Assembly (NCBI GenBank): GCA_029974925.1
Contig: JARKQH010000177.1
Span: forward strand, 1-44,969
Reading direction: 5' to 3'
From: Verrucomicrobiota bacterium
GTDB lineage: Bacteria; Verrucomicrobiota; Verrucomicrobiia; Limisphaerales; UBA8199
Length of the DNA stretch: 44,969 nucleotides
Both the position numbers and the translations under genes were made by a program. Positions 42,295 to 44,969 of the stretch are shown here, in pieces. The notes under the pieces are model-generated. The model saw only the letters and a program-made list of their open reading frames with translations. It was not told where the DNA came from and did not search any database. Position 1 is the first letter of the stretch. The number at the start of each line of letters is the position of its first letter.

Positions 42295-43629
42295 TCAGTG
42301 CTGGCGGGTGCAGATTTGCCTGATGGCGTCGCAGACGAAGGCGACGTCGGCCTCCGTCATGTCCGGATAAAGCGGCAGCGTGATGATTTCCGGGTAAAGG
42401 GATGCCGCCACGGGGAAATCCCCCGGCAGGTAGCCGTAGGTGTCACGGTAGTAAGGATGCATGTGGAGCGGCAGCCAGTGGACGGAGGTGCCGATGCCGC
42501 GTTGGTGCAGCTCCCGGATGAACTGGGCGCGGTCCAGATGGAGTTTGTCGAGCCGCAGCCGGATGACGTAAAGGTGCCAGGAGTGGATGCGATCAGGCTG
42601 CTCGCGGGGCGTGATGACTTCCTCAACCCGGTCCAATAATTCGGAGTAGCGCGCGGCCAAAGCAGCGCGGCGGTGGTGCAGCGTGTCTGCCTTGCGGAGC
42701 TGGTGGATGCCGATCGCCGAGGCGATGTCGGTGAGGTTGTATTTGTAGCCGGGAGCGATGATTTCGTAATACCAGGAGCCTTCGGCGGTAAACCGTTTCC
42801 AGGCATCGCGGGAAATGCCATGCAGGGACATGATGCGCATGCGATCGGCATGGTCATCGTTGTTGGTGCAGGCCATGCCGCCTTCGCCGGTGGTGATGGT
42901 CTTGTTTGCGTAAAAAGAGAAACAACTGATGTCGGCGGCGGCGCCAACGGGCGCCCAGGTGTCGGAGGGCGGAGGGCGCAGGGCGGAGGGCGAAGGTTGG
43001 GGGCTGAAACTTGAAACCTGAAAACCGGCAGGATGATTCATCACTGGCGATTGGCCGCAGACCCGTTCTTGCTGGTCCGTAGCGGGGAGTCCAAGGTCCT
43101 TGGCCTGTGGCCCAGGGTCTGCAGTCCGGTAGTAAGCCGGGCAGCAGTGAGCGGCGTCCTCGATAATTTTCAGATGGTATTGTTTGGCGAGTCGCTGAAC
43201 GCCGGCCATGTCGCCGATCTGCCCGCCGTAGTGGACGGGCATAATGGCAACCACTTCACGGCCGGCGGCGAGTTCGGCCTGAATGCGGCGCTCGGCATCA
43301 GCGATATCGAGGTTGAAATCCTCGGCGCGGCAATCGGCGAGCACGGGCCGGGCGCCGAAATAGCGGACAACCTCGGCGGTGGCGGCAAAGGTCATGGTAG
43401 GCACCAGCACGCCCTGCCCCGCTTTGAGTCCGATGGCTTCCAGCGCCAGGTGCAGCGCCGCCGTGCAGGAGTTGAGCGCGACGGCGTGCTTTTGCCTGAG
43501 GTAGGCGGCGAACTCCTTTTCGAATTGCTTGGTCCGCGGGCCCGTGGTGAGCCAGCCGCCCTTGAGCGTTTCGACCACTTCGGCGATCTCTTCGGGGCCG
43601 ACGCTGGGTTTGTAAAAAGGGATTTTCAA
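42295..43629 (-). CDS. DegT/DnrJ/EryC1-type sugar aminotransferase with a repeat-derived insertion
   Basis: This 444-residue PLP enzyme has KIPFYKPSVGPEE at the start, SCTAALHLALEAIG, IIEDAAHCCPAYYR, and the PLP lysine K243 in FSFYANKTITTGEGGM. The C-terminal substrate region has GISRDAWKRF, YKYNLTDIASAIG and GIGTSVHWLPLHMHPYY. These are normal for sugar 4- or 3-aminotransferases, which would aminate the keto sugar made by the CapD-type enzyme. The family is usually about 370-390 residues. Here about 55-60 residues (169-228) are inserted between the His and the DISCFSFY segment. They are Pro/Ser/Gln-rich (FQVSSFSPQPSPSALRPPPS) and come from short DNA repeats. The insertion is in a loop and leaves all catalytic residues. 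The start is TTG. Confidence 0.88.
   Translation of the reverse strand: MKIPFYKPSVGPEEIAEVVETLKGGWLTTGPRTKQFEKEFAAYLRQKHAVALNSCTAALHLALEAIGLKAGQGVLVPTMTFAATAEVVRYFGARPVLADCRAEDFNLDIADAERRIQAELAAGREVVAIMPVHYGGQIGDMAGVQRLAKQYHLKIIEDAAHCCPAYYRTADPGPQAKDLGLPATDQQERVCGQSPVMNHPAGFQVSSFSPQPSPSALRPPPSDTWAPVGAAADISCFSFYANKTITTGEGGMACTNNDDHADRMRIMSLHGISRDAWKRFTAEGSWYYEIIAPGYKYNLTDIASAIGIHQLRKADTLHHRRAALAARYSELLDRVEEVITPREQPDRIHSWHLYVIRLRLDKLHLDRAQFIRELHQRGIGTSVHWLPLHMHPYYRDTYGYLPGDFPVAASLYPEIITLPLYPDMTEADVAFVCDAIRQICTRQH
42946..43125. repeat. In-frame mosaic of short repeats inside the aminotransferase gene
   Basis: On the minus strand the block contains CAGGTTTCAAGTTTCAG, then a tandem CCCTCCGCCCTGCGCCCTCC, then CCTCCG. 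It also has the words CTACGGACC and CCAATCGCCAGTGATGAATC. The first two motifs recur at 43855-43975 or 44800-44880. It codes for the extra 55-60 residues of the aminotransferase. Confidence 0.65.
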
Positions 43630-43983
43630 AATGGAAAAGCGGGAGACAGGAACTGAATGATGGAGTCAGGGACGAGTCTTCTGTGGAACCACCATTCGGC
43701 TAACGATTGCCAACGTTGACTACTGAGACCTTTTCGCTTTACGTTCGGGCCGCGTTTGAGCATCCGTTCGGAGTCGCTCGGCAATCACGCCAGTTCGTTC
43801 CCTGCGTCATTCTATCAACGGACACGTCGTTAAACAGGGGCAAACGCGACCGGTGGCCAGAAAGGGGTCCGTAGCCAATGGTCAGTCGTCCGCAGTCCGA
43901 AGCACCTGCACCCAGTCCCCATTCAAATTTCAGGTTTCATCCCTCATCCTTGAATCCCTGCTTTCCGCATGCTGCTTTGCCCC
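43630..43983. repeat. Gene-free gap containing the same mosaic of short repeats
   Basis: These 354 bases have no supported gene. From about 43855 to 43975 the plus strand has GGGTCCGTAGCCAATGGTCA, GTCCGCAGTCCG, AAATTTCAGGTTTCATCC and CCCTCATCCTTGAATCC. The words GGTCCGTAGC and CAGGTTTCA are shared with the block inside the aminotransferase gene, and CCCTCATCCTT with the block inside the YdcF-like gene. The part from 43630 to 43850 is AT-richer and may hold the promoter of the aminotransferase gene, but no clear boxes were found. Confidence 0.55.
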
Positions 43984-44969
43984 TCACATCCATCCCCGCA
44001 GTTTGTACCAGGCCATGCCGAGATACTCATGCATGGTTTCGGAAAACTGAAGGTAACTGCTGGGAGTGGGGATGAGGTTGACCAGTTCCCGGTGCCAGGG
44101 AAGCTCGCGGTCAACGATCCGGAAATCCGTCGGGGCGGGCACAAACTCAATGGTGGGACAGTGTTTCCTGAAGACCCCCATGGACCGGGGCATGTGGAGG
44201 GCGGAGGTGACCAGGAGAATGCGGTGGAAGCCTTGCTCCTTGAGCATGGATTCGAGGTTGGCAGCGTGTTCGCGGGTGTTGCGGGAGGCCGATTCCTGGA
44301 CGATGGCATCTCGCGGCACGCCCAAGTTCGTGAGCAGCTCGGCCATGATATCAGAACCGGGCTGCAGACCGATGCCGCCTGTGGCGATGCCGGAAGTGCA
44401 AAGGATTTTGGGCGCCCAGCCGGTCCGGAACAGATGGGCTCCGTAAAGCACACGGTCTCCGGCTTCGGCCACCTCGACCGTCGTGCGCGGAGGGAGTTTG
44501 GGCCAGGTCCCACCCCCCAGCACGAGGATGCAGTCGGCGCGAACTGAAGGATGAGGGGTGGGACCTGAATCCTGAGGATTCAGCGGCGGCCGCGAGTCGG
44601 GAGTCGCAGCCCCAATCACTGACGCCTGGTCGCTGACCTCTGACGGGCGCTCCAAGGTATTTGCTCCATGGTCCATCGCCTCCGCCAAAGGCGGATACTG
44701 GCGTTCGAGGTGGCGAGTGAGGACACCGACGAGCCAGCCATTGCCGCAGAGGAGGAGGACGGCCAGGGCGGACCAGAAGCAGAGCGCAGCCAGGAGCTCG
44801 GAGCGGGGGGCGCGGAGCGAGGAGCACACTTCCAAGCGAGGAAGGATGGGGCCTGAAACCTGCGGAGGTGAACCGACGGCGGTCTGGGCCATGCGGGCGC
44901 GGCGGCGGAACACGGCCGAGGCAAGCAGAAGCAAGATCGCGATCGAGGTCGGATAAAGCAGCTTCAGCA
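43984..44969 (-). CDS. YdcF/ElyC (DUF218)-family membrane protein, 5' end outside window, with repeat-derived insertions
   Basis: The frame is open to the right edge; upstream codons read LKLLYPTSIAILLLLASAVF, a membrane helix, so the start lies outside. The DUF218 domain is recognisable: ADCILVLGGGTWP, EAGDRVLYGAHLFRTG, GVPRDAIVQESASRNTREHA, ILLVTSALHMPRSMGVFRKH. The second membrane helix is LAALCFWSALAVLLLCGNGW. Family members act at the inner membrane in envelope polysaccharide or cell-wall metabolism (ElyC-like). Two extra segments interrupt the usual layout. One lies between the two helices (VGSPPQVSGPILPRLEVCSS, then LRAPRSE). The other, about 45 residues, lies between LERQYPPL and ADCILVLGGG (RPSEVSDQASVIGAATPDSR, PPLNPQDSGPTPHPSV). 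Both derive from the short-repeat mosaic described for the neighbouring gap. Confidence 0.85.
   Translation of the reverse strand, partial: LKLLYPTSIAILLLLASAVFRRRARMAQTAVGSPPQVSGPILPRLEVCSSLRAPRSELLAALCFWSALAVLLLCGNGWLVGVLTRHLERQYPPLAEAMDHGANTLERPSEVSDQASVIGAATPDSRPPLNPQDSGPTPHPSVRADCILVLGGGTWPKLPPRTTVEVAEAGDRVLYGAHLFRTGWAPKILCTSGIATGGIGLQPGSDIMAELLTNLGVPRDAIVQESASRNTREHAANLESMLKEQGFHRILLVTSALHMPRSMGVFRKHCPTIEFVPAPTDFRIVDRELPWHRELVNLIPTPSSYLQFSETMHEYLGMAWYKLRGWM
44536..44670. repeat. Short-repeat mosaic inside the YdcF-like gene (second insertion)
   Basis: On the minus strand it contains GAGGTCAGCGACCAGGCGTC, CAGTGATTGG, GACTCCCGACTCGCGG, CTGAATCCTCAGGATTCAGG and CCCCTCATCCTTCAG. CCCTCATCCTT is also in the gap at 43855-43975. 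Confidence 0.55.
44795..44885. repeat. Short-repeat mosaic inside the YdcF-like gene (first insertion)
   Basis: On the minus strand it contains CGCAGGTTTCAGGCCCCATC, then CTTCC and a tandem CTCCTCGCTCCGCGCC...GCTCCGAG. CAGGTTTCA and the tandem CTCCGC-type words are shared with the aminotransferase insertion. Confidence 0.55.

Follow-up and report, generated by a model that had tools for sequence, protein, structure and literature searches.

Degenerate heptanucleotide arrays in a Verrucomicrobiota genome and their in-frame occurrence in conserved enzymes

The window, 44,969 nucleotides long, is an entire contig of the Verrucomicrobiota bacterium genome G000 (5.7 Mb in 487 contigs) and contains degenerate arrays of seven-nucleotide units inside two genes and in the gap between them. 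We consider it likely, with a probability of roughly 0.7, that these are STRR-like heptanucleotide arrays that spread by copying, change length in steps of 7 nt, and survive within genes only where reading frame, absence of stop codons and a permissive loop coincide. The genomes compared were largely metagenome assemblies (MAGs), the samples in which arrays were counted were partial, and both the lag-7 array detector and the gene model were simple.

The features of the window are collected in Table 1. A first-pass annotation of this DNA, made from the sequence alone, had described repetitive blocks in the aminotransferase gene, in the gap and at two sites of the YdcF-like gene; all of them were borne out. 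It had also held that the coding blocks keep the frame and spare all catalytic residues. Every coding block of the window is indeed in frame and free of stops, the translation is open throughout, and alignments with orthologues show each block inserted into a conserved core that is otherwise undisturbed. The best solved relative of the aminotransferase is ArnB (1mdo).

Table 1. Genes and heptamer arrays of the window
Feature	Position	Strand	Support
P0001, ArnB-like DegT/DnrJ/EryC1/StrS aminotransferase, 444 aa, carries an insert	42295..43629	-	PF01041, E 3e-113
In-frame heptamer-array insert in the aminotransferase, residues 169-224, between CCPAYYR and WxxVG	about 42958..43125	-	lag-7 z 7.1-7.2
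Intergenic heptamer array between the two genes, GGTCAGT-like and TTTCAGG-TTTCATC-CCTCATC-CTT units	43866..43975		lag-7 0.52, z 6.0
P0002, YdcF-like (DUF218) membrane protein, 5' end off the contig	43984..44967	-	PF02698, E 5.4e-27
Second YdcF insert, directly before the DUF218 domain, about residues 97-142, GGTCAGC-like and CTCATCC-like units	about 44542..44679	-	lag-7 z 4.4
First YdcF insert, some 33 residues long (about residues 29-61), in the loop that precedes the CFW segment	about 44785..44883	-	lag-7 z 3.2

The coding-strand sequence of the aminotransferase insert includes TTTCAGG-TTTCAAG-TTTCAGC-CCCCAAC-CTTCGCC-CTCCGCC-CTGCGCC-CTCCGCC-CTCCGAC, preceded by degenerate nGGACCA-like units. 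Measured against dinucleotide shuffles, identity at a lag of seven nucleotides was 0.69 over positions 42960-43030 (z 7.2), 0.52 over 43866-43975 (z 6.0), 0.42 over 44540-44690 (z 4.4) and 0.46 over 44780-44875 (z 3.2). In the blocks of the window, 7-nt units that vary in sequence follow one another in a single register; the blocks do not consist of repeated fixed words. These arrays are degenerate mosaics, while many of those in G009, a relative in the same family, are near-perfect repetitions of a single unit.

The first-pass description, in which the blocks share the same DNA words, did not hold as it stood. Counted singly in 742 kb of G000, several words occurred at chance level: CAGGTTTCA was found 14 times (9.5 expected), GGTCCGTAGC twice (0.9 expected), CAGTGATTGG twice (1.0 expected) and CCCTCCG 207 times (187 expected). 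CCCTCATCCTT was in excess (4 against 0.42 expected), and the single occurrence of CAGTGATGAATC (0.06 expected) is too few to judge. Nonetheless, the three-unit composite TTTCAGGTTTCATCCCTCATCC, which is written by units as TTTCAGG-TTTCATC-CCTCATCC, was found at 11 sites of the genome with up to three mismatches, compared with none for its reversed control; one of these copies of the 22-mer is in the gap array at 43866-43975. The words are significant only as a chain, not singly. The notion of a dispersed repeat family was upheld by the composite, and that of one element with fixed words gave way to many related heptamers in one register. The flanks of the 11 copies had nothing in common beyond further heptamers, and a blastn search of the insert against its own genome returned only weak pieces of 20-36 nt. 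That the blocks are assembly artefacts or chance repeats is barely credible: such an explanation could appeal to the metagenomic origin of the assemblies and to the single words at chance level, but it is contradicted by the lag-7 statistics and by orthologous inserts in GTDB contigs of several isolates (L069, L070 and L096) and in other genomes compared. As a separate observation, the most over-represented 10-mers in L109-L188 and the window belong to other dispersed repeats of G000, a palindrome-like family around GGGACGTCTCGTCCCAG (with GACGTCTCGT found 49 times against 1.1 expected), and also include ATTTCGCGGAT and CCGCGACTTCAGGAACCGTGAGG.

A comparison of orthologues for presence or absence of the blocks, proposed in the first-pass annotation as a check, agreed with insertion in both proteins. 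An insert is present at the tip of the same beta-hairpin in 9 of 26 distinct aminotransferase orthologues, and all nine differ. In nearly all insert-free orthologues, CCP[AGS] and VG are separated by exactly 12 residues; in the nine carriers the number is 30-80. The inserts at this site are mostly without a common peptide; that of G005 reads TTDHRPQTTDHGPQTTGH...SGLWSVVCGH and that of G068 KAEDGRQKIEDSGQWSVVSGQWSADRG...INHQPSTINH. A 7-nt periodicity was detected in eight of the nine (z 4.7-14.9), the remaining one, from G211 (L202), giving no 7-nt signal. On a tree of 27 rows, two of them identical, the presence of the insert requires three changes, at least two of which are forced by well-supported branches, and therefore inserts were gained or lost more than once in this loop. 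In the clearest inserts identity declines from lag 7 to lag 28, as expected under local duplication and mutation. The genes of one close pair of orthologues, from G070 and G068, are separated by an indel of 63 nt and one of about 21 nt (19+2 aligned); both lengths are multiples of 7 and of 3. The same two genomes each have two copies of the aminotransferase, one with the loop insert and one without (L189/L204 in G070, L190/L203 in G068).

In all nine aminotransferase inserts the length is a multiple of three and frame 0 is free of stops, although in eight of them one or both of the other forward frames are interrupted by a stop. These properties bear on the idea that the segments are never translated, being spliced out or bypassed by the ribosome. 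Such a mechanism would suit clean insertions in catalytic enzymes, but we regard it as highly improbable because neither property would be needed in a segment that is skipped. Judging from the open frame, the inserts are probably translated. The earlier suggestion that they form disordered protein was in line with the AlphaFold2 model of the aminotransferase (32-sequence alignment, mean pLDDT 87), in which residues 174-216, at the hairpin tip between strands 166-168 and 225-227, are the only stretch with pLDDT below 50. In the comparison with ArnB 1mdo, the insert lies in a gap, query 170 to 232 being set against chain residues 172-177. The insert is thus predicted by the model to be disordered at the tip of a beta-hairpin.

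The two inserts of the YdcF-like protein are missing from nearly all orthologues. No aligned orthologue covering the region has the first, and most orthologues are without the second. At the second site, the G008 protein has a shorter heptamer insert, CCTTCAA CTCTCAA CTCTCAA, composed of TCAACTC units.

The arrays extend well beyond the window. Three consecutive GGTCAGT units, with up to two mismatches, were found in 73 of the 313 genomes of the order, the reversed control being almost nil; matches per genome reached 251, the maximum being in G009. With the lag-7 detector, the density was 22 per Mb in G000 (16 arrays in 742 kb) and 192 per Mb in G009 (59 arrays in 308 kb); G005 gave 6 arrays in 122 kb, and G008, whose sample is partly N, gave 20 in 72 kb. 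At a strict threshold, the own-genome sample had 10 arrays at lag 7 and G009 had 54, compared with 0-4 at lags 4, 5, 10, 11, 13, 17, 19, 20 and 22. Lag 8 was exceptional at this threshold, with 9 arrays in the own genome and 14 in G009, and lag 16 gave some. The arrays are clustered along contigs. Their heptamer classes vary by genome, AAACGTG for instance making up 17 of the 59 G009 arrays, and some classes are shared between genomes.

A same-class partner facing it in inverted orientation, within 250 bp or inside the array itself, accompanies 15 of 57 G009 arrays, and a direct partner only 2. The insert in the G005 aminotransferase is itself an inverted pair. These observations, together with the resemblance of in-frame insertion to the RPEs of Rickettsia, would be accommodated by a discrete mobile element, a MITE- or RPE-like palindrome with heptamer arms, that carries the arrays. 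We consider this quite unlikely, since the majority of arrays are not inverted, the spacers between inverted arms have nothing in common, and no conserved core, ends or flanks were found. Inverted same-class arrays around unrelated spacers were observed at the G009 loci L253, L256, L258, L263 and L270. Neither did a transposase point to such an element: among 58 genomes, Y1/RAYT transposases did not track the density of arrays, Y1_Tnp being present in G003 and G007, both without GGTCAGT arrays, and not enriched in G009.

The first-pass annotation had proposed a test for an excess of the repeats inside open reading frames, and the opposite was found. Only 5 of 16 arrays in G000 and 19 of 59 in G009 are inside modelled genes, compared with 83% of the DNA being coding. 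As to frame bias, for which a test had also been proposed, coding arrays lie on the stop-free strand: for arrays with coding flanks in one frame, 2.71 of 3 frames were open on that strand and 0.81 on the opposite one, a contrast that is in part built into the selection, since an open reading frame was required. The corresponding value was 1.56 for the other arrays, and those of them with at least one open frame had a mean of about 2.3 open frames. The idea that the arrays are selected as a source of linkers found no support, the arrays being strongly depleted in genes and the coding ones, with their stop-free orientation, looking like a filtered subset.

The genes that do contain arrays are varied. 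In G009, in-frame arrays were found in RibD, protoporphyrinogen oxidase, ferrochelatase, GlcE, GlcF, RdgB/HAM1, an OPT transporter and an MFS transporter; NuoG of G008 also contains such sequence, as does a glycosyltransferase-like protein of G005 that was assigned to its family by eye only. The supposed association with proteins of the polysaccharide cluster did not survive this comparison, and the proposal that inserts are tolerated did, given their in-frame position in conserved enzymes with an intact core. The same range of hosts makes it very unlikely that the arrays are phase-variation (contingency) loci, in which slippage by 7 nt toggles surface-polysaccharide genes. Although a change of plus or minus seven nucleotides shifts the frame and the two genes of the window have a surface-polysaccharide context, like arrays are found in the housekeeping genes for RibD, ferrochelatase, RdgB and NuoG, arrays are mostly intergenic, and those of the window are so degenerate that they would not slip often.

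The array segments are absent from solved homologues of RibD and ferrochelatase. In the ferrochelatase of G009 there are two inserts, one of 29 residues made of CAAAGTC and GGTCAGT units and another of 67 alignment columns, each with a clean empty site in ten relatives of G009, several of which belong to the same family. No heptamer seed was found at the empty ferrochelatase site in the ten relatives. The second insert (G009, L260 8609-9970) contains a long inverted repeat, GGAGCGCGGACATTCCTGTCCGCAGCAACG...CGTTGCTGCGGACAGGAATGTCCGCGCTCC, adjoining CATCCAT heptamers, and represents a second kind of in-frame element. Residues 317-373 of the G009 RibD are missing in most relatives, and G005 has about 27 extra residues there, as read from coordinates only. 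By match coordinates only, RibD of G021, G025, G032 and G036 has about 23-31 extra residues near residue 153, a region that is a possible second hotspot of this protein.

Arrays could have grown in place by slippage from chance seeds, with no copying between loci, the recurring words then reflecting a sequence preference of the polymerase. In its favour, adjacent units are the most alike, and heptanucleotides outnumber the other classes of long simple repeats in most bacterial genomes surveyed, slippage having been proposed as their origin (Mrazek 2007, as cited in PMC4679880). We judge this explanation unlikely. Three different units occur in fixed order at 11 loci, the ferrochelatase site is without any seed in relatives, and inverted partners are in excess. 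Slippage alone accounts neither for the same ordered words at unrelated loci nor for the excess of inverted same-class partners over direct ones.

In the reading that we prefer, spread by copying, arrays would have spread through genomes of this order as pieces of them were copied to new sites, probably through template switching, or through recombination at short homologies, in the course of replication or repair; no enzyme or transfer intermediate for this came to light. Slippage would then make arrays longer or shorter, 7 nt at a time, and point mutations would accumulate in them, which would keep the register and change the words; the register and its variable units support this step, with growth by slippage itself being the more conjectural part. 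Most landings would be intergenic. A genic landing would persist only if its whole length is divisible by three, its strand has no stop and the loop is permissive, conditions that the inserts described above support; the enzyme would then go on working with a disordered stretch inserted in frame. Tandem growth with copying between loci, as proposed in the first-pass annotation, is supported by the register, the lag decay and the composite at unrelated loci.

Among known systems, the arrays belong with the heptanucleotide repeats. Arrays of GGGAATC have been described in Xanthomonas, with related ones in Nostoc (PMC4692102). Like the STRR of cyanobacteria (Calothrix, Nostoc), GGGAATC of Xanthomonas and TAACTGA of Beggiatoaceae, the present arrays consist of dispersed, mainly intergenic 7-nt tandem units, with genome-specific words, sometimes inverted pairs and no established mechanism (PMC4692102, PMC4679880). 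In both the own genome and its relatives, 7-nt units exceeded most control lags and shuffles, and the arrays were dispersed, with recurring words, and mainly intergenic. The previously described repeats are mostly of one word and were reported in non-coding DNA or hypothetical proteins (PMC4692102, PMC4679880), whereas the arrays here change words along one register and occur in frame in conserved enzymes. Repeat units divisible by three are likeliest in coding DNA according to Mrazek 2007, as cited in PMC4679880.

At the protein level the arrays work in an RPE-like manner. The RPEs of Rickettsia are small repeats inserted in frame in unrelated metabolic genes with no apparent loss of function (Ogata 2000/2002, as reviewed in PMC10969869). 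The review describes them as palindromic families of about 150 bp with conserved encoded peptides, unlike the inserts studied here, which lack a conserved sequence, length, palindrome or peptide; in-frame insertion is shared, and identity with RPEs was rejected. Borg repeats are also fast-changing tandem repeats that create disordered stretches with hotspots in homologous proteins, but their units within ORFs are divisible by three and virtually unique to each locus (PMC9879509). Here the unit is 7 nt even in coding arrays, which is not divisible by three, and words recur between loci, so the arrays are not of the Borg type. With REP/REPIN sequences and other MITEs they share the character of short dispersed multi-copy repeats (PMC3116915, PMC3733652), but no fixed palindrome family and, in 58 genomes, no link to a Y1 transposase were seen, and an assignment to RAYT-mobilised repeats was discarded.

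This case unites heptanucleotide repeats, RPE-like insertion and Borg-like disorder with a non-triplet unit. No description of heptamer arrays in conserved Verrucomicrobia proteins was found in the open-licence literature, where absence is not proof. It is conceivable, though doubtful, that an active, sequence-tolerant copying process in 7-nt steps continually seeds and remodels arrays and would be a steady source of disordered loops in core enzymes, some of which may later be used. The findings serve as a warning that aminotransferase, RibD and ferrochelatase models from these genomes can hold genuine long insertions that are not annotation errors. Non-triplet tandem repeats enter the coding sequence of core enzymes of riboflavin and haem synthesis, nucleotide sanitation and respiratory complex I, and since clean empty sites exist in relatives where checked, the origin of disordered loops becomes directly observable. 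These genomes also provide a system for testing an old question, namely why seven nucleotides is the favoured long repeat unit in bacteria.
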